Both the position numbers and the translations under genes were made by a program. The notes beneath the pieces are model-generated. The model was not told the DNA's origin. It was given only the letters and a program-made list of their open reading frames with translations, and ran no database searches. Positions 54,094 through 63,316 of a stretch of 64,000 nt of DNA are shown here, piece by piece. Positions within the stretch are counted from its first letter, which is position 1, and each line of letters opens with the position of its first letter. The stretch comes from Pseudooceanicola atlanticus (GTDB lineage Bacteria > Pseudomonadota > Alphaproteobacteria > Rhodobacterales > Rhodobacteraceae): the NCBI RefSeq assembly GCF_000768315.1, contig NZ_AQQX01000004.1:372001-436000 (forward strand), read 5' to 3'.

Positions 54094-55782
54094 TCAGCTG
54101 TGTTCTTCCGCCGCCGTGGCCGCCAGCGCCCGGTTATAGGCCCTGAGCGCATCGACATGGTAAAGCGCGCCCAGCAGTTCCGGCGGCTGGTCCGCACCCT
54201 GCAATTGCACCACCGGCAGGAACACCGCGCCGGTCCGGTCGAAGGCCGGCAGGGCGCTTTCCAGCGTCGCCTGCGCGTCGAGGTAATCGCCGGCGTCGAT
54301 CATTTCCCAGCAGGTTTCCTCGGGGGCGGCCCGCTCCGCATCGCGGCGGCGCATGGCGCTGGCCACGCGCACAAGGCCCAGCAGGTAGGCCTGCGGCCCG
54401 GCGGCCAGGTGCACCCCGCGCCGTTCGATCTGCGTCAGGAAGAAGCTGCGATCCACCAGCCGGGTCCCGATGGCAGTCGAGATCGACACGGTCACCATCA
54501 CCGCCAGCGCCGTGGCCCAGTCGCCCGTCAGTTCGAACACGATCAGCGTGGTCGAGATCGGCGCGCCCAGCACCGCCGCCGCGACGCCGCCCATCCCCGC
54601 CAGCGCATAGAGCGACGACGACCCCGACACGTCCGGAAAGATCGAGGTCGCGATCAGCCCGAAGGCCAGCCCCGTCAGCGCCCCGACCATGAGAGAGGGG
54701 GAGAAAACCCCGCCCCCCATCCGTCCGCCGATGGTAATCGACACAGCCACGGTCTTGATCACGGCAAAGACGATTGCGTCCCACAACCCGATCCGTCCGG
54801 TCAGGGCCAGCGATGTCGTCTCGTAGCCGACGCCGATGATATGCGGGAACCAGATCGCGATCATGCCCAGCAGGGCCCCGGCAATGGCGGGCCGGATGAA
54901 ACGCGGCAGGCCGATGCGGCCCTGGATATGGGTCGCCACGTCCTCGGCCGCGAAGATCGACCGCATCAGCATCCCCGCCACCACGCCGCAGACCGCGCCC
55001 AGCAGCAGGAAGGCCGGCAATTCCTCGTAGAACTGGAACATGGAGGCATCGGGCAGCGTGAATTCCGTCACCCCGCCGAATTCCAGCCGGTTGATCACCG
55101 TCCCCGCGACCGATGCGATGACGATGGGCGCGAAGGCGTGGATGGCGAAGTGGCGCAACACGACCTCGAGCGCGAAGAGAGCCCCGGCAATCGGCGCGTT
55201 GAACGAGGCCGACACCGCCGCCGCCACCGCGCAGCCCAGCAGGTCGCGCCCGGTCACGCCATCCGCCTTGAGCCAGTGCAGCACGCGGGACGAGATCACC
55301 GCGGCCAGGTGGACCACCGGCCCCTCCCGCCCCGAGGACCCGCCGGTGGACAGCGTGATCAGCGATGCGGCAGCCGAGGCCAGGCCGGCCCGCCCCTCGA
55401 CCCGGCCATCATTGAGCGCGGCGCCCTGGATCACGTCGGCCACCGAACGCACCCGCCCATCAGGCGTGAAGACATGCAAAATCGCCCCCACCACCAGCCC
55501 GCCCAGGATCGGGATCGTCAGCACCCAGTACCAAGGCAGCGTGCCCGCCCAGCTGTGCAGGTGGGTGATGTCGTCGGTGCGGTAGAGAAAGGCCTGAAGC
55601 CATTCGATGCCCTTGCGGAAGAACAGCGCCGCCGCCCCGCTGGCGATCCCGACAGCCAGGGCGATGAACCAGAACTGGATCTGGTTGGGCCCCCTTGTCA
55701 GGACGACATGCCAGCCCCCCCGCAGATGGGCCCAGGCGCGGTCAGCGGCCTCGGACAACGAGGATCGGCTGTTCTGCGACAT
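54094..55782 (-). CDS. ClC family chloride/proton antiporter with C-terminal cytoplasmic domain
   Basis: 562 aa. About 10-12 membrane helices with the ClC selectivity motifs STGGSSGREGPVVH (includes the gating Glu, so an exchanger rather than a channel), ASFNAPIAGALFALEVVL, and GGRMGGGVFSPSLMVGA. The C-terminal ~130 residues (after RSFFLTQIERRG) are a soluble part resembling a degenerate CBS pair (MIDAGDYLDAQATLESALPAFD ... VDALRAYNRAL). Role: chloride or other anion exchange, acid or osmotic balance. Convergent with the DUF427 gene. The Ser of the GSGIP motif is replaced in loop G(G)SSG context, so anion preference may differ. Confidence 0.9.
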   Translation of the reverse strand: MSQNSRSSLSEAADRAWAHLRGGWHVVLTRGPNQIQFWFIALAVGIASGAAALFFRKGIEWLQAFLYRTDDITHLHSWAGTLPWYWVLTIPILGGLVVGAILHVFTPDGRVRSVADVIQGAALNDGRVEGRAGLASAAASLITLSTGGSSGREGPVVHLAAVISSRVLHWLKADGVTGRDLLGCAVAAAVSASFNAPIAGALFALEVVLRHFAIHAFAPIVIASVAGTVINRLEFGGVTEFTLPDASMFQFYEELPAFLLLGAVCGVVAGMLMRSIFAAEDVATHIQGRIGLPRFIRPAIAGALLGMIAIWFPHIIGVGYETTSLALTGRIGLWDAIVFAVIKTVAVSITIGGRMGGGVFSPSLMVGALTGLAFGLIATSIFPDVSGSSSLYALAGMGGVAAAVLGAPISTTLIVFELTGDWATALAVMVTVSISTAIGTRLVDRSFFLTQIERRGVHLAAGPQAYLLGLVRVASAMRRRDAERAAPEETCWEMIDAGDYLDAQATLESALPAFDRTGAVFLPVVQLQGADQPPELLGALYHVDALRAYNRALAATAAEEHS

Positions 55783-55898
55783 GACGCGGGGCGGGTCCCT
55801 TTCTTGTGCATTCGGGCAGGCCTGGCAGCACTCCGATGCCCTTTCCAGTTCCCTGCACCTGTCTTAGAAGGGGCAAGCCCTACGAGGAGAGATGGAAC

Positions 55899-57278
55899 AT
55901 GGCATTTGAGACGGCTTGGGCCGAGCTTTCGGAAGTCTTAGGCGATCGCGTGACGCGCTCCAAGCCCGAAAGGGACGCGCATGGCGCCTCAGAGACCTAT
56001 TTCCCTGTCGCTGCCCCCGACGCGGTCGCCTATCCCGAAACCACCGAAGAGGTCGCGGCGCTGGTGCGCATCTGCGCGGCCCATGGCGTGCCGGTGATCG
56101 GCTACGGCGCGGGCACCTCGCTCGAAGGGCAGTCGCAGGCGTTTTCCGGCGGCGTCACCGTCGATTTCGCCCGCATGAACAAGGTGCTGGAGGTCAGCCA
56201 GGGCGACATGCATGCCCGCGTGCAGCCCGGCCTGACCCGCGAGGTCCTGAACGAGGAACTGCGCGCCACGGGCCTGTTCTTCCCGGTCGATCCGGGCGCC
56301 AATGCCACGATCGGCGGCATGGCCTCGACCCGTGCCAGCGGCACGACGGCGGTGCGCTATGGCACGATGCGCGACAATGTCATGGCGCTGGAGGTCGTGA
56401 TGGCCGATGGCCGGATCATCCGCACCGGGTCGCTGGCGCGCAAATCTTCGGCCGGATACGACCTGACGGGGCTATTCGTCGGCTCCGAAGGGACGCTGGG
56501 CCTGATCACCGAACTGACGCTGAAACTGCATGGCCAGCCGGAGGCGATCACCTCGGCCGTCTGTGCCTTCGACACGATCGGGGACGCGGTGCGCGCGGTG
56601 ACCGACACGATCCAGATGGGCATCCCCATGGCGCGGATCGAGTTCGTCGATGCGGCCACGGTACAGGTTTTCAACGAGTATGCCGGCGCCGGCATGGTCG
56701 AGGCTCCGCATCTGCTGGTCGAATTCCACGGCTCGGAAAGCGCCGTGGCCGAGGATGCCGGGACCTTTGGCGAGATCGTAGGCGATCACGGCGGGCACGG
56801 GTTCAAATGGGCGGCCGATGCGGAGGAACGCAAGGCGCTGTGGACGCTGCGGCACAATGCCTATTGGGCCATCGTCAATGCTCGCGCGGATACCCGCGCC
56901 GTAGTGACGGATATCTGCGTGCCGATCTCGCGCCTGGCCGAAGCCGTCGAGGCGACCCAGGCCGACCTGGAAGAGCACAACATTCGCGGCCCGATCCTGG
57001 GCCATGTGGGCGACGGCAATTTCCATTCGATCCTGCTGTTCGACCCCGCCGATCCGGCAGAGCTGGAGCGCGTCAAGGCAGCGTCGGACCGGATGGTGCA
57101 GCGCGCGCTCGAAATGGGCGGTACGGCCACGGGCGAGCATGGAATCGGTGTCGGCAAGAAGGCCTTCATGGAACGCGAGCACGGTGAGGGCTGGCAGGTG
57201 ATGGGCCAGTTGAAGGCCGCGCTGGACCCCGACAACGTCTTCAATCCCGGAAAATTGGTTCCAGATACATCTACTTGA
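55899..57278 (+). CDS. FAD-linked oxidase, D-lactate dehydrogenase (cytochrome) / GlcD type
   Basis: 459 aa. The PCMH FAD domain has VPVIGYGAGTSLEGQSQAFS, PGANATIGGMASTRASGTTA and GLFVGSEGTLGLITELTLKL. The C-terminal FAD-oxidase domain has HVGDGNFHSILLFD (catalytic His region) and GEHGIGVGKKAFME. It oxidises D-2-hydroxy acids (D-lactate or glycolate-like) passing electrons to the respiratory chain; no iron-sulphur partner subunit (GlcE/F) is adjacent, favouring the single-subunit DLD type. The frame opens at 55806, but ATG 55899 with GAGGAGAG is the start. Confidence 0.9.
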   Translation: MAFETAWAELSEVLGDRVTRSKPERDAHGASETYFPVAAPDAVAYPETTEEVAALVRICAAHGVPVIGYGAGTSLEGQSQAFSGGVTVDFARMNKVLEVSQGDMHARVQPGLTREVLNEELRATGLFFPVDPGANATIGGMASTRASGTTAVRYGTMRDNVMALEVVMADGRIIRTGSLARKSSAGYDLTGLFVGSEGTLGLITELTLKLHGQPEAITSAVCAFDTIGDAVRAVTDTIQMGIPMARIEFVDAATVQVFNEYAGAGMVEAPHLLVEFHGSESAVAEDAGTFGEIVGDHGGHGFKWAADAEERKALWTLRHNAYWAIVNARADTRAVVTDICVPISRLAEAVEATQADLEEHNIRGPILGHVGDGNFHSILLFDPADPAELERVKAASDRMVQRALEMGGTATGEHGIGVGKKAFMEREHGEGWQVMGQLKAALDPDNVFNPGKLVPDTST

Positions 57279-57398
57279 TGCGCAACGGCGTCAGCCTGGA
57301 TGGCAAAAATGTTTCCAAAGAGTTAGGCGGGGCGTAAGCTGACCCAAGGTTCTGCCAGGTCACAAGCCCAGCCAAGTCCTTTGAAGTCTTTTGCCGCC

Positions 57399-59249
57399 AT
57401 GCCGCTTACATCGCTCATTTCCAATGCCTCTGACAGGTCCGACAGCGTCACTGCGCGGGATATGGAATTGCGGGCCGAGCTTCTGGGCAAGCTCTACGGC
57501 GCGGCGCTGGAGCCCGAGCGTCTGGACGATGTGCTGGAGGATTGGGACGCGCTGGTCGTTCCGCAATGGCACCTGCCCTCGCGGTCGCGCCGGGCCATGC
57601 TGGAGGGCAGCGGGTTGCTGCCGCATATGCAGCAGCTGAACCGGATGCTGAACCACGTCCGCCGCGCGGCACCGCTGAGCGCCGAAGAGGCCGAGTTGAA
57701 GCAGTTCCGCCGCTCGGCCGCCTTCACGATCAATGGCGCGCTCAAGATCTCTGCGGCGAACGAGGCCGCGGTCGAGATGCTGGGCGTGGGCGCGCGGCAG
57801 GGTCTGCACGATCTGACCCTGCGCGCCGATGACCGTGCCGTGCTGGCCCGCGTGGCCGACGGCATGCTGAACAAGCGACCCGGCGCGACGGAACAATCGC
57901 GGCTGGTGCGCGCCCGGCGGGTGCCTGACGATCACCTGATCCTGTTGCAGATGCGCCTGGTCACCCCCGAGAAACAGCCGAAATTCGTCCTGGTCGTCAC
58001 GACCGAGATGTACTGGCCGGAAGGGTCCGAAGCGACCCTGCGCGACGCCTTCGGCCTGACCCAGGCCGAAACCGAGGTGCTGATGGCCCTGACCCAGAGC
58101 CGCACGCTGAGCGACATCGCCGCAGCGCGGGGCCGGTCGGTCGACACGATCCGCACCCAGATCAAGGCGATCCAGACCAAGACGGAGGCGCGGGGCCAGA
58201 ACGAACTGGTCAAGCTGGCGATGACGACGATGGATTTCGCCCCCAGCGATCCCGACCGGATCGGCCCGGCAAGCGATGCGCCGGCGGCAGCGCCCCGTGT
58301 TTCGCGTGGTGGGCAGGAATTGCTGCCCCTGCCCTATCGCAGCCTGACGCGCCCCGACGGGCGGCGGGTGGACTACCTGGAATTCGGCGCGACCGATGGC
58401 CGGCCCGTGATGTATCTCAGCTCGAACCTCGGGCTGTGCCGCTGGCCCGCGGATGCCGAACGGATGGCGATGCAGATGGGTCTGCGGGTCATCGCGCCGA
58501 TCCGTCCCGGATTCGGCGGCTCCACCCCGCTGCGGCGCGGGCAGGATCGCGTGGGCGCGGTGGCGGCTGACATGATCGCCCTGCTGGACCATCTGCGTAT
58601 CGCCTCGGTGCCCCTGCTGGTGCTGGATGAGGACATGATCTTTGCCGCGCGGTTGCATCATATCGCACCCCGTCGGGTGACCGCCGTGCTGGGCTGTAGC
58701 GCGCTGCTGCCGCTGACCCGGCCCGAACAATACGAACGGATGGGCCGCTGGCACCGCTTCATCCTGGGCACGGCACGTTATACGCCGCAGGTGCTGCCCT
58801 TCATGATCACCACCGGCTTTGCCATGGCCCGCCGCATGGGCAAGGCGGAATTCGTGCAACTGGTCTATGCGGGCAGCAAGGCGGATTGCGACGCCACCAT
58901 CACCCCCCGCATCCAGGAAGCGCTGGACAGCGGATCGGATATCGTCCTGCGCGAGGGGTTCGACGCGGCCAAGGCCTATGCGGCCGAGGTCACGGCCATG
59001 CATCGCAACGACTGGAACGACGAACTGGCGGAAATGTCCGCCAACGTGCCCATGATCAACCTGATCGGCACCGAAGATCAGGCGATTCCCCCCGCCACTC
59101 TGGCCGAGTTCCGGGAGGCCCATCCGGGCATCAAATTCGAATCCGTGGCAGATGCGGGATCTTTCCTGTTTTTCCAGAAATGGCCGCTGGCCCTGGAGCA
59201 TCTGGAGGCGCTAATGCGCGTCGAAAATGCTCCGACCGCCAGCGAATAA
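57399..59249 (+). CDS. LuxR-type HTH regulator with C-terminal catalytically altered alpha/beta-hydrolase domain
   Basis: 616 aa. Residues 1-200: PAS-like sensor (LLGKLYGAALEPERLDDVLE, FTINGALKISAANEAAVEML). Residues ~215-277: LuxR/GerE HTH (LTQAETEVLMALTQSRTLSD, RSVDTIRTQIKAIQTKT). Residues ~325-610: alpha/beta-hydrolase fold (GRPVMYLSSNLG, VIAPIRPGFGGST). The nucleophile elbow reads VLDEDMI (D412 where Ser is expected, no flanking Gly). The acid strand INLIGTEDQAIPP is retained, but the His position reads ADAGSFLF (S588). So the fold is kept and the triad lost: a likely ligand sensor. The start at 57399 is chosen over TTG 57381; the RBS is weak. Confidence 0.8.
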   Translation: MPLTSLISNASDRSDSVTARDMELRAELLGKLYGAALEPERLDDVLEDWDALVVPQWHLPSRSRRAMLEGSGLLPHMQQLNRMLNHVRRAAPLSAEEAELKQFRRSAAFTINGALKISAANEAAVEMLGVGARQGLHDLTLRADDRAVLARVADGMLNKRPGATEQSRLVRARRVPDDHLILLQMRLVTPEKQPKFVLVVTTEMYWPEGSEATLRDAFGLTQAETEVLMALTQSRTLSDIAAARGRSVDTIRTQIKAIQTKTEARGQNELVKLAMTTMDFAPSDPDRIGPASDAPAAAPRVSRGGQELLPLPYRSLTRPDGRRVDYLEFGATDGRPVMYLSSNLGLCRWPADAERMAMQMGLRVIAPIRPGFGGSTPLRRGQDRVGAVAADMIALLDHLRIASVPLLVLDEDMIFAARLHHIAPRRVTAVLGCSALLPLTRPEQYERMGRWHRFILGTARYTPQVLPFMITTGFAMARRMGKAEFVQLVYAGSKADCDATITPRIQEALDSGSDIVLREGFDAAKAYAAEVTAMHRNDWNDELAEMSANVPMINLIGTEDQAIPPATLAEFREAHPGIKFESVADAGSFLFFQKWPLALEHLEALMRVENAPTASE

Positions 59250-59349
59250 CCGCCAGAACCACCCCATACCCGCCGCTTATCACCCGATTGGGGTATGACG
59301 AATTACTGAGATTTCATTAATTTCGAATCCGTAAGCGGTACCTTGTTTG

Positions 59350-59386
59350 GCCTCGATCCGGTCCTCCGGGTCGGGGCTATTTTTTG
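59350..59386 (+). terminator. terminator 101 bp after the LuxR-hydrolase stop
   Basis: A 12-bp stem GCCTCGATCCGG / CCGGGTCGGGGC with TCCT loop (two G-U pairs), then TATTTTTTG. The 223-bp gap 59250-59472 also has a CATACCC / GGGTATG hairpin (59265-59297) right after the stop. The distance leaves room for a long 3' UTR or a short independent RNA ending here. Confidence 0.8.
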
Positions 59387-59472
59387 TTTGCCACGGGCAG
59401 ACGACAGGTGCGTGACGGGGACGGCCGCTGGTAAGACCGCTGCCCGCTCAACCACCGAAATCAGTGAGAAAC

Positions 59473-61119
59473 TCAGCCCAGCAGCGACAGGGCCGCCGCG
59501 CGCGCCTCTGCGGTGATGCGGTCGCCGGACAGCATCCGCGCGATTTCATCGACCCGTTCGTCGCTGTCGAGCGACGTGACGGTCGACAGAGTCGCTTCCC
59601 CCTCGACCCGCTTGGCAACGCGCCAGTGATGCGCCCCGAGTGCCGCGACCTGCGGGCTATGCGTCACCACCAAGACCTGTCCGGTGCTGGCCAACGCGGC
59701 CAGACGCCGCCCGACCGCGTCGGCGGTGGCCCCGCCCACGCCGCGGTCGATCTCGTCGAAGATCATGGTGACGCCGGGCGTGTCGCCGGTCAGGCAGACC
59801 TTCAGCGCCAGCAGGAAGCGCGACAATTCCCCGCCCGAGGCGATGCGGTTCAGCGCGCCTGCCGGTGCGCCGGGATTGGTGGCGACGGTAAAGGTTGCCT
59901 CGTCCGAGCCATCCGGCCCGGGATCGCCGGCGGTCAGGGCGGTACGAAACTCCGCCCGCTCCATCTTGAGCGGGGCGAGTTCCGCCATCACGGCCGCATC
60001 GAGCCGCGCCGCGGCCTCGGCCCGCGCCTCCGACAGGGTTTCGGCGGCTTCGGCATAGGCGGTGGCGGCCTGTTTCGCGGATTTCTCAAGCGACGCGATA
60101 TCGTCCGCGCCCTGATCCAGCCGGTTCAGGCGGTCGCGCAGCAGGTCCGCGAAATCGGCCAAATCGTCGGGGGCCACGGAATGCTTGCGGGCGAGGCCAC
60201 GGATCGCGAAGAGCCGCTCCTCCGTCGCCTCAAGCTCCAGCGGGTCGAAATCCAGCGCTTCGAGGCAGCGCTGCACCCCGTCGGCGGCTTCGCCCAGTTC
60301 GGCCATGGCACGGCCCAGGGCGGCGACCGGATCGTCCAGCTGATCGCCGGTATGTTCGGCAGCACCGTCCAGCCAGCGAAGCGCGTCGGACATCGCCCCC
60401 TCTGCCCCGTCGGAGCCGAGTGCTGCATGGGCGCGAGCCACGTCCTCGCGCACCTTTTCGGCGGATTGCATCATGCGGCGGCGGGCGTCGAGGTCGGCTT
60501 CCTCCCCCGGTTCGGGAGCCAGCTTGTCCAGCTCTCCGACGGCGTGGCGCAGGAATTCCTCTTCGGCCTGGACCTCTTCCAGCGCGGCGCGGGCGGCCTC
60601 GAGCGCCTTGGTCGCCTCCTGCCGCTTGCGCCAGGCCAGGCGCACGGCATCGGTCAGGTCAGGGCGGTTCATGTAGGCATCCAGCAACGCGCGATGGCCC
60701 CGTGGGTTCAGCAGCCCGCGATCGTCATGCTGGCCGTGCAGTTCCACCAACGTGTCCGACAACCGCCGCAGCACCTCGCCCGAGGACCGGCGATCGTTGA
60801 CCCAGGCGGTCTTGCGCCCGTCGAGCCCGTTGACCCGGCGCAGGATCAGTTCGGGCCCGTTGGGGATCCCGGCCTCTTCCAGAACGGCATGTGCGGGGTG
60901 ATCGTCGGGCAGGTCGAACCAGGCGGTGACCTCGCCCTGCTCCGCGCCCTGACGGACCAGGTCGGCGCGGCCACGCCAGCCCAGCACGAAGCCCAGCGAA
61001 TCCAGCAGGATCGACTTGCCCGCCCCGGTTTCGCCTGTCAGCACGTTCAGACCTGGCTGGAACTCAAGCTCCAGCCGGTCGATGATGAGCATGTCCCGGA
61101 TATCCAGCCCGCGCAGCAT
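59473..61119 (-). CDS. recN: DNA repair protein RecN (SMC-like ATPase)
   Basis: 548 aa. Walker A TGETGAGKSILLDSLGFVLG, a long coiled-coil middle (rich in Glu/Ala/Leu, residues ~165-370), ABC-type signature ASGGELSRFLLALKV and Walker B TMIFDEIDRGVGG. It holds DNA ends in double-strand-break repair. Start ATG 61119 (MLRGLDIRDMLIIDRLELEF is canonical). Read leftward, 35 bp after bamD, so in the same transcript as bamD. No clear SOS box was identified upstream. Confidence 0.95.
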   Translation of the reverse strand: MLRGLDIRDMLIIDRLELEFQPGLNVLTGETGAGKSILLDSLGFVLGWRGRADLVRQGAEQGEVTAWFDLPDDHPAHAVLEEAGIPNGPELILRRVNGLDGRKTAWVNDRRSSGEVLRRLSDTLVELHGQHDDRGLLNPRGHRALLDAYMNRPDLTDAVRLAWRKRQEATKALEAARAALEEVQAEEEFLRHAVGELDKLAPEPGEEADLDARRRMMQSAEKVREDVARAHAALGSDGAEGAMSDALRWLDGAAEHTGDQLDDPVAALGRAMAELGEAADGVQRCLEALDFDPLELEATEERLFAIRGLARKHSVAPDDLADFADLLRDRLNRLDQGADDIASLEKSAKQAATAYAEAAETLSEARAEAAARLDAAVMAELAPLKMERAEFRTALTAGDPGPDGSDEATFTVATNPGAPAGALNRIASGGELSRFLLALKVCLTGDTPGVTMIFDEIDRGVGGATADAVGRRLAALASTGQVLVVTHSPQVAALGAHHWRVAKRVEGEATLSTVTSLDSDERVDEIARMLSGDRITAEARAAALSLLG

Positions 61120-61154
61120 CCAACTATCCTGTCATGTCCCCCGAAGGGTCGGGG

Positions 61155-62012
61155 TCACAGCCACTTGCCGTTGATCATCTGACGGTAGATCTTGGACAGC
61201 CAGTTATCCCCGAACATCTTCATCTCAAGCCCCTGGCCGGTCAGCAGGTTATAGCTGTCCTCGTACCATTCGGTGGACTGGAAGTTGTAGCCAAGGATCG
61301 CGCCGGCGGTCTGCGCCTCGTCCGTCAGGCCGAGGCTGACATAGGATTCCACCAGACGGTGCAGCGCCTCTGCGGTATGGGTCGTGGTCTGGAAATCCTC
61401 GACCACGACGCGGAACCGGTTGATCGCCGCCGTGTAATGCTTGCGCTTCAGGTAGTAGCGCCCGATCTCCATTTCCTTCGACGCCAGGTGGTCGAAGGCG
61501 AGGTCGAATTTCAGGATCGAGGACCGCGCGTAATCGCTTTCGGGATAGCGTTCGATCACCGTGCGCAGCGATTGCAGCGCCTGGAAGGTCAGGCCCTGGT
61601 CGCGGCCGACCTCGTCGATCTGGTCATAATACGAGAGCGCCAGCAGGTATTGCGCATAGGCGGCATCGTCATCTGTCGGGTAGAAGTCGATGTAACGCTG
61701 CGCGGCCGAGCGGCTGTTCTCGTAATCCTTGTCGTTGTGATAGGCGAAGGCCTGCATGATCAGCGCGCGCTTGGCCCATTCGGAATAGGGGTAGAGGCGT
61801 TCGACCTCGCCGAAATATTCGGCGGCGCGCTCGTATTTGCGGCGATTCATCTCGAATTCAGCGCGGCCGTAGATCTGTTCCGCGGTGAAGGACTCGATCG
61901 GTTCGCCGCCCATGCCCAGACCGTCGGTTGATTGTCCGCCGCAGGCTGCCAGCGCCAGACACAATACAACCGGCATCGCCAGCCGTCTGGCCCGACCTGC
62001 GCCGCCTGACAT
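61155..62012 (-). CDS. bamD: outer-membrane protein assembly factor BamD
   Basis: 285 aa lipoprotein: signal AMPVVLCLALAACGG with lipobox LALAAC, then TPR repeats (AEQIYGRAEFEMNRRKYERA, AAEYFGEVERLYPYSEWAKR, DYENSRSAAQRYIDFYPTDD, EIGRYYLKRKHYTAAINRFR) typical of BamD/ComL. It is the essential TPR partner of BamA for outer-membrane protein insertion. The frame allows a GTG start at 62063; ATG 62012 gives a shorter n-region, and ATG 61976 is also conceivable. It lies between lpxC and recN, as in many alphaproteobacteria. Confidence 0.94.
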   Translation of the reverse strand: MSGGAGRARRLAMPVVLCLALAACGGQSTDGLGMGGEPIESFTAEQIYGRAEFEMNRRKYERAAEYFGEVERLYPYSEWAKRALIMQAFAYHNDKDYENSRSAAQRYIDFYPTDDDAAYAQYLLALSYYDQIDEVGRDQGLTFQALQSLRTVIERYPESDYARSSILKFDLAFDHLASKEMEIGRYYLKRKHYTAAINRFRVVVEDFQTTTHTAEALHRLVESYVSLGLTDEAQTAGAILGYNFQSTEWYEDSYNLLTGQGLEMKMFGDNWLSKIYRQMINGKWL

Positions 62013-62191
62013 TGTTGACTTCACCACTTGCCGTGCCCCGTTCGTCTTATTGGACTTTCCCACTGCGACCAGCCGGTCATAAACCCTGTCGGCCCCGGAG
62101 GTCCACTAGGGTCTATCACAGAAATTCCGGGGGGCAAATTGAGTTTCACCCCGATTTCGGCGGTGCTTCGCAAAGGCTTGGACCGGGCCGA

Positions 62192-63115
62192 TCAGGCGAC
62201 GGCGGGGATCTCTGCCGCGCAGACGCCGGCCCCCGGCAGACGCGACGCCATCGGGATATCGCAATCCACGATGCGGAAGTTCTGCGGGTCCGAGAAGAGT
62301 TCACGCAGGAGCGTGTTGGTCAGGCTGTGCCCGGCCCGCGTGCCGGTATAGAGGCCCAGAACCGGGCCACCCGCCAGCGCAAGATCGCCAAGCGCATCCA
62401 GCATCTTGTGGCGCACGGGTTCGTCCGTGCGACGCAGGCCGCCGGGGCTGACAACTTCGTCGCCTTCGAATACGACCGCGTTTTCGCCGGGGATGCCGCC
62501 CAGAGCCAGGCCCTGCTGCTGCATCGCATCCACATCCGCCTGGCGGCAGAAGGTGCGGCTGTCGCACAATTCGCGCACAAAGGTGCCGTTCTCCATCGTC
62601 AGGTGCTTTTGCTGCACACCGATGGCGGCGTCTTCGAAATCGATGGTGAAGGCAATCTCCATCACGCGGTTCGGTTCCAGACGGGCCCTGGCGGCGCCGT
62701 TGCTGACCTCGACCGGGCGCAGCACCTCGATCGCGCGGATCGGCGCGGCCTGGATCATCAGCCCGGCCTTGAGGAATTCTTCGACGAAGGGGCGCGCGGA
62801 GCCATCGAGGATCGGAACCTCGGGGCCGTCGATGTCGATCATCGCATTGTGAATGCCGCAACCGGCCAGCGCCGCCATAAGGTGTTCGATGGTCGAGACA
62901 TAGGCCCCGGCCGCGTTTTCGATCTTGGTGCAAAGCGGGGACCGGTTCACCTTGTCCCAGCGGGCCTGGACCATCTGGTCGCCCAGCAGGATATCGGTGC
63001 GGCGGAACCAGATGCCGTGATCGGCCGCGGCAGGGCGCACGACGAGCCGTGCCGGTTGCCCCGAATGGAGCCCGACGCCCGAGAAGTGGACCGGTGCCTT
63101 GATCGTCTTTTGCAC
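62192..63115 (-). CDS. lpxC: UDP-3-O-acyl-N-acetylglucosamine deacetylase
   Basis: 307 aa. Zinc ligands STIEHLMAAL (His) and RHKMLDALGDLALAG (His, Asp), catalytic IPILDGSARPF region (PEVPILDGS) and GHSLTN near the C-terminus match LpxC. It catalyses the committed step of lipid A synthesis. The start is GTG at 63115 with GAGG 6 bp upstream (MQKTIKAPVHFSGVGLHSG). It is on the same strand as ftsZ, 261 bp downstream. A possible own promoter lies in that gap. Confidence 0.96.
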   Translation of the reverse strand: MQKTIKAPVHFSGVGLHSGQPARLVVRPAAADHGIWFRRTDILLGDQMVQARWDKVNRSPLCTKIENAAGAYVSTIEHLMAALAGCGIHNAMIDIDGPEVPILDGSARPFVEEFLKAGLMIQAAPIRAIEVLRPVEVSNGAARARLEPNRVMEIAFTIDFEDAAIGVQQKHLTMENGTFVRELCDSRTFCRQADVDAMQQQGLALGGIPGENAVVFEGDEVVSPGGLRRTDEPVRHKMLDALGDLALAGGPVLGLYTGTRAGHSLTNTLLRELFSDPQNFRIVDCDIPMASRLPGAGVCAAEIPAVA

Positions 63116-63316
63116 GTTAACCTCGCATCCCCTGCGCTTTGCTGGTCCTTGCCTTCATCCCCGAAGGCGGACCGCGCCTCTTGGTGTCCAATAGGTAAAT
63201 ACCCGCGGGCGAAGGCTCAACTCACTCTTTGCAACGGAGTGAAACATCCTTGCAATAAAGACGCGGGAGATCGCCTATGGGTTCCGCCCTCTGACCCAAG
63301 CCATTGATCTTAAATG

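Follow-up and report, generated by a model that had tools for sequence, protein, structure and literature searches.

The window analysed here, a 64,000-nucleotide stretch of a Pseudooceanicola atlanticus contig, carries a gene for a protein in which a PAS fold, a LuxR/GerE helix-turn-helix (HTH) and an alpha/beta-hydrolase domain follow one another in a single chain (Table 1). An earlier note on the same DNA had read this arrangement from the letters, as a PAS-like domain, a central HTH and a C-terminal hydrolase, and it was recovered in full. A TTG codon 18 bases upstream of the ATG is a possible alternative start. Across window positions 54094-63154 the gene lies downstream of what we take, from sequence recognition rather than a family search, to be a ClC-like channel and a FAD-dependent oxidase, and is followed by presumed recN, bamD and lpxC genes on the other strand.

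Table 1. Features of the regulator gene and its product, in window coordinates.
Feature	Position	Strand	Basis
Whole gene, 616 aa, ATG start	57399..59249	+	Open reading frame and full-length relatives
N-terminal helical region, aa 19-104	57453..57710	+	Predicted structure and alignment
PAS fold, aa 105-205	57711..58013	+	Foldseek of N-terminal model; PAS_4 in 10/77 members
LuxR/GerE helix-turn-helix, aa 214-279	58038..58235	+	Pfam, alignment
Linker, aa 280-312	58236..58334	+	pLDDT <50 at 283-296; longer in some relatives
Alpha/beta-hydrolase domain, aa 313-607	58335..59219	+	Predicted structure, fold/profile comparison
Nucleophile elbow, aa 408-412; slot Asp410 at 58626-58628; Asp412 near-invariant	58620..58634	+	
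Cap region, aa 437-545	58707..59033	+	Limits drawn from predicted helices
Acid residue Asp560, kept	59076..59078	+	Alignment
Ser588 at the catalytic-His position (Gln in most relatives)	59160..59162	+	Alignment
Terminator-like stem-loop with T run, 3' of gene	59348..59379	+	Pattern match only

The domains were followed through an alignment of 77 sequences (A2), made up of the window protein and 76 of the 80 related loci described below; L106 was left out for a stop or ambiguous letter, and L069, L073 and L086 as incomplete. Tyr33, Ala36, Pro39, Trp49 and His76 of the N-terminal helical region are invariant in all 77. The predicted structure points to a PAS fold for residues 105-205: among the matches listed, those that Foldseek ranks highest for the N-terminal model are PAS domains, with FG214 in first place and a first E of 1.9e-6. 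The best E of an N-terminal sequence profile against the PDB was only 0.23. The GerE domain was matched in 75 of the 77 members at E <=0.01; the window protein's own match falls under the Pfam cut-off. Structure prediction returned the alpha/beta-hydrolase fold, with a ten-residue mean pLDDT of at least 89 across residues 311-610. Between HTH and hydrolase domain, two relatives (L016 and L018) have Pro/Ala-rich linkers about 100 residues longer than that of the window protein. In another (L017, G010:C20:164916-166963) the N-terminal/HTH and hydrolase parts lie in different frames about 220 bases apart, the gene being either broken or naturally split within the linker.

Distribution and genomic setting

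Relatives were collected by two routes. A peptide-pattern scan of genome contigs from 84,980 species with two HTH peptides returned 228 relatives, and the best 80 of them were retained; presence of the HTH in these 80 is by construction, because the scan queried HTH peptides. A whole-protein search of 60 genomes (the window's own included), which is free of that bias, found 14 relatives, L002-L015, that match most of the protein, several of them the same genes as loci of the scan. The HTH aligns in all 14, and no homologue without it of the kind that would have counted against the earlier reading came to light there; relatives without an HTH match appear only as distant hydrolases. Going by record titles, we take 77 of the 80 loci to belong to Rhodobacterales, the exceptions being L096 (Tianweitania), L106 and L123 ('Alphaproteobacteria bacterium'). 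The L106 record (CP059262.1) is titled Exiguobacterium profundum and holds a copy of a gene that is otherwise nearly confined to Rhodobacterales; the title is probably mistaken. Within the genus the gene was not found in all species, with no match in G001, G004 and G012 and weak or distant matches in G014 and G021.

With neighbours again named by sequence recognition, the gene adjoins recN in 37 of the 80 loci, and 35 of these 37 also show bamD, as the window does; some of the 80 contigs are too short for the neighbours to be told, and the remaining loci have different neighbours. Placement at the recN site argues for old vertical inheritance, without pointing to a functional partner. The FAD-dependent oxidase stands upstream in 27 of the 37 recN-adjoining loci, 3 of the other 10 having little or no upstream sequence; it was rejected as an obligate partner. 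No shared motif emerged from 14 upstream sequences, where the aligner reversed most rows, leaving an alignment of little weight, and the palindromes differed from row to row.

Nucleophile elbow, catalytic triad and conservation

The position of the nucleophile slot was fixed at residue 410, since three observations agree: in five profile alignments to PDB hydrolases, read by eye, Ser or Asp nucleophiles stand opposite column 410; the same column is Ser or Asp in all 31 aligned relatives that lack an HTH match; and the predicted strand stops at 409, with a helix starting at 410. The earlier note had placed the nucleophile at Asp412, which was wrong in detail, this residue being nucleophile+2 and thereby ruled out as the nucleophile. 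Over 81 aligned sequences (the 80 loci of the HTH-peptide scan plus the window), column 410 holds Gly in 56, Ser in 10, Asp in 8 (Asp410 of the window protein among them), Ala in 4, and His, Leu and Gln once each, so that Ser or Asp still occupies the slot in 18. Column 412 is Asp in 80 and Glu in one; the slot residue thus drifts while Asp412 stays. In a 106-sequence tree with weak deep nodes, the only core-clade sequences with Asp410 are in the window's part, and a single group of records titled Roseovarius takes in all ten with Ser410. The acid of an active hydrolase is retained as Asp560 (Asp in 77 of the 81). At the catalytic-His position, column 588, there are 71 Gln, 5 Ser, 2 Ala, one Ile, one Asp and one gap, and His in 0 of 81.

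The earlier note's assignment of Ser588 to the catalytic-His position is borne out by the alignment, and no alternative register with an intact Ser-Asp-His triad was found. Conserved loss of Ser and His in homologues, which the note had proposed as a check, holds throughout for His (with the one gap) and for the slot in the majority that have Gly, with Ser and Asp kept in the minority counted above. At the level of sequence, the hydrolase domain has lost its catalytic triad, with His absent and the nucleophile usually so; because the loss is seen across the 81 aligned sequences, it is a property of the family and not a mutation of a single genome. An enzyme with altered chemistry, in which Asp410 acts as nucleophile in the window subclade and another residue replaces His, would fit the Asp410 of the window protein and seven relatives (8/77), and distant fusions with Asp in the slot plus His are found in Ruegeria sp. 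TM1040 (L131), L142 and Tistrella (L135). However, most members carry Gly in the slot and the others one of Ser, Ala, Gln, His and Leu, no member has the catalytic His, and Asp412 stands where a small residue is usual; a sensor-enzyme of this kind is very improbable.

Conservation is uneven along the chain. The mean majority fraction over the 77 sequences is 0.70 in both HTH and cap, 0.60 and 0.59 in the hydrolase core, 0.51 in the N-terminal helices and 0.46 in the PAS domain; the cap is thus conserved as strongly as the HTH, with Arg447, Met448, Trp451 and Phe454 invariant, and of the folded parts PAS is conserved least. Since the cap is kept as strictly as the DNA-binding part despite the lost triad, the hydrolase domain is in use for something. 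This bears on the possibility that this domain is a relic in the course of decay, with PAS and HTH alone doing the work of the protein, which would agree with the lost triad, the patchy occurrence in the genus and the two frames of L017. Such decay sits badly with a cap conserved like the HTH among sequences sharing 33-57% identity with the window protein, and with the high pLDDT over 311-610, and we regard it as improbable.

Ligand binding is the simplest use of a conserved dead hydrolase domain, and a protein interface the next, as the conservation of the cap could instead stem from a protein partner. The dead domain would then be an interaction or dimerisation module without a ligand, with PAS as the sensor. 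The invariant cap residues, the presence of the PAS fold and the poorly ordered linker are in keeping with such a module, but a pure interface would not obviously need the polar residues kept at the former active site (Asp412, Asp560 and, in most members, Gln588), and low conservation speaks against PAS as the sensor; this explanation is rather unlikely.

Fusions of HTH and hydrolase domains as a class

Fusions of an HTH to a hydrolase are present in the Alphaproteobacteria, the class of Rhodobacterales, and in a family outside it. Matches spanning both parts were found in at least 12 of 241 genomes of the class (profile A4, E <=1e-15) and at least 19 of 249 genomes of the phylum (E <=1e-30), 11 of the 19 lying in the one outside family; profile A4 includes distant relatives, the counts are taken from match spans, and they are lower bounds because at most five candidates were scored per genome. 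In that family (f154, genomes of 2-3 Mb) fusions occur in at least 11 of the genomes searched, those of L170-L174 and L176 among them. L173 and L174 have an intact GHSAG with His, and one genome (G320) has two fusions.

For a comparison of catalytic residues, a protein was called intact if it had Ser, Asp or Cys at 410 and His at 588, the acid not being required. Among the 25 distinct fusions that fall outside the core clade, the nucleophile, His or both are missing from 17, and both are kept by 8, namely Ruegeria sp. TM1040 (L131), L142, Tistrella (L135), L021, L036, L145, L173 and L174; catalysis is thus compatible with the fusion design. The Tistrella protein was counted as intact with Ser at its acid position, L149 (a gap at the slot) as lost, and L172 has lost the slot and kept the His. 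All 11 core members included miss the nucleophile, His or both. In contrast to the 8/25 of the fusions, 11/11 relatives without an HTH match, collected by a search of the same kind, keep both residues (Fisher p 1.5e-4, shared ancestry ignored), and with 20 hand-picked hydrolase-only rows of the class search added the figure becomes 31/31. Near-identical controls stand within the set (L151/L154; L183/L184/L189), and the controls L181 and L182 sit in long frames of 538 and 826 codons. Near-identical L138, L139, L140 and L175 were removed, as was L024, a duplicate control; L032 and L033, both kin of L031, stand outside the fusion set, and fusions of the phylum search entered only where given loci.

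In the hydrolase tree, whose deep nodes are weak, fusions and relatives lacking an HTH match are intermingled, which suggests that HTH and hydrolase were joined several times. If loss is irreversible, ten losses are counted whichever of the 11 controls roots the tree, again with weak deep nodes. These sequences are not independent, and the link between catalytic decay and fusion to an HTH is a strong pattern that falls short of a clean test; enzyme activity seems to have been lost repeatedly among related regulator-enzyme fusions. Of the fusions that keep both residues, L131 (5524-7161) and L142 pair Asp in the slot with His, an arrangement familiar from dehalogenases and epoxide hydrolases. 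The fusion gene of Ruegeria sp. TM1040 has an AraC regulator beside it, and a VWA protein is encoded two genes away.

Possible ligands, mode of action and meaning

The protein shares the GerE HTH with LuxR/GerE regulators, both quorum-sensing LuxR and LuxR solos. It differs from them in that its HTH is central and its other modules are a PAS and a hydrolase fold; the 77 members match 14 Pfam families (E <=0.01), and the autoinducer-binding domain expected of a quorum-sensing LuxR is not one of them. Further parallels are found in pseudo-hydrolase receptors, which are already known. The gibberellin receptor GID1 of plants is likewise a hydrolase fold without working catalysis that serves as a receptor; it differs in acting via partner proteins and is not known to have a DNA-binding domain. 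D14/KAI2 and RsbQ also employ an alpha/beta-hydrolase in signalling, with the triad intact there and the His absent here, and in mycobacterial Rv1900c/LipJ the hydrolase is fused to a signalling output as here, the output being a cyclase and not an HTH. PAS and HTH are joined in one protein in the haem PAS one-component switch FG214, which in the available part of its description is an HTH-PAS protein without a hydrolase, its haem held by His156 and His175 of the PAS domain (PMC13060918). In residues 105-205 of the window's family, no column has His, Cys and Tyr together in at least 30% of the 77 sequences and none has frequent His. A haem PAS is not supported by this core, and haem of the FG214 kind is unlikely because the conserved His is missing.

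An acyl-homoserine lactone (AHL) made by the cell itself is also unlikely as the general ligand, because LuxI is not enriched with the gene: among 60 genomes, matches above 40 bits (a threshold of our choosing) occur in 5 of 18 carriers, defined by a core-family match at E <1e-50, vs 14 of 42 non-carriers, and within the window's own family in 5 of 18 vs 11 of 18. AHL from neighbours might serve as ligand, and the earlier note's proposal of an ester, lactone or acyl-type ligand is a conjecture. The window's own genome has one LuxI match, on another contig (G000:C23:69930-70136), covering 67 of 183 positions at 25.4 bits (cut-off 24). Of the 22 genomes searched in the genus, 17, the window's own among them, give weak LuxI-like matches that lie inside model positions 15-113; our guess is that they resemble another acyltransferase. 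Hydrolase family-model matches include the enol-lactonase PcaD (E 7.9e-12, far below the model's cut-off), which is fold kinship and gives no ligand.

Fold and domain order as predicted, the missing His and usual loss of the nucleophile, and a conserved cap and acid are what sequence and prediction show. We propose, at about even confidence, a one-component regulator in which the pseudo-hydrolase binds a small ligand and, together with PAS, sets the activity of the HTH. The GerE HTH would bind DNA, as its family membership implies. Most likely the C-terminal hydrolase fold would serve as a receptor, holding a small molecule and leaving it intact: although the triad is lost, the cap is kept, as are residues surrounding the former active site. 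This enzyme-like tail, its shape retained, probably lets the regulator sense that molecule. Binding would alter the packing or dimerisation of hydrolase domain, PAS and HTH, and thereby binding to DNA, and PAS might be a second input or a dimer interface. Control by shielding or dimerisation would be favoured over a rigid helix, as is suggested by the poorly predicted linker at 283-296 and its extra length in L016 and L018.

One-component regulators and PAS-HTH proteins are each already known. No description of an HTH-alpha/beta-hydrolase regulator was found in a search of open-access literature in which terms with a slash were unsearchable and some phrasing likely missed the usual spelling, and nothing was found there on repeated catalytic decay in HTH-fused hydrolases; the architecture is not described in the available portions of PMC13060918, PMC2447327, PMC3466318, PMC13136126 and PMC7159879. 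As a broader and tentative idea, which we consider possible but somewhat unlikely, HTH-fused alpha/beta-hydrolases might make up a so far unrecognised group of bacterial receptors. They would have evolved from enzymes on several occasions and given up catalysis time and again in favour of ligand sensing, whilst those with the triad still in place may break down their own inducer and thereby reset themselves. As part of the same idea, the window subclade, with Asp410 and no His, could even trap an electrophilic ligand covalently, in the manner of the engineered HaloTag. If the receptor reading is true, bacterial gene regulation would gain a hormone-receptor-like type of sensor, and fusions of the same kind of HTH to hydrolases ranging from intact to dead would be a natural series for studying the change from enzyme to receptor. 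Among Rhodobacterales, an order with many marine members and poorly known regulatory signals, relatives of the window protein are common.
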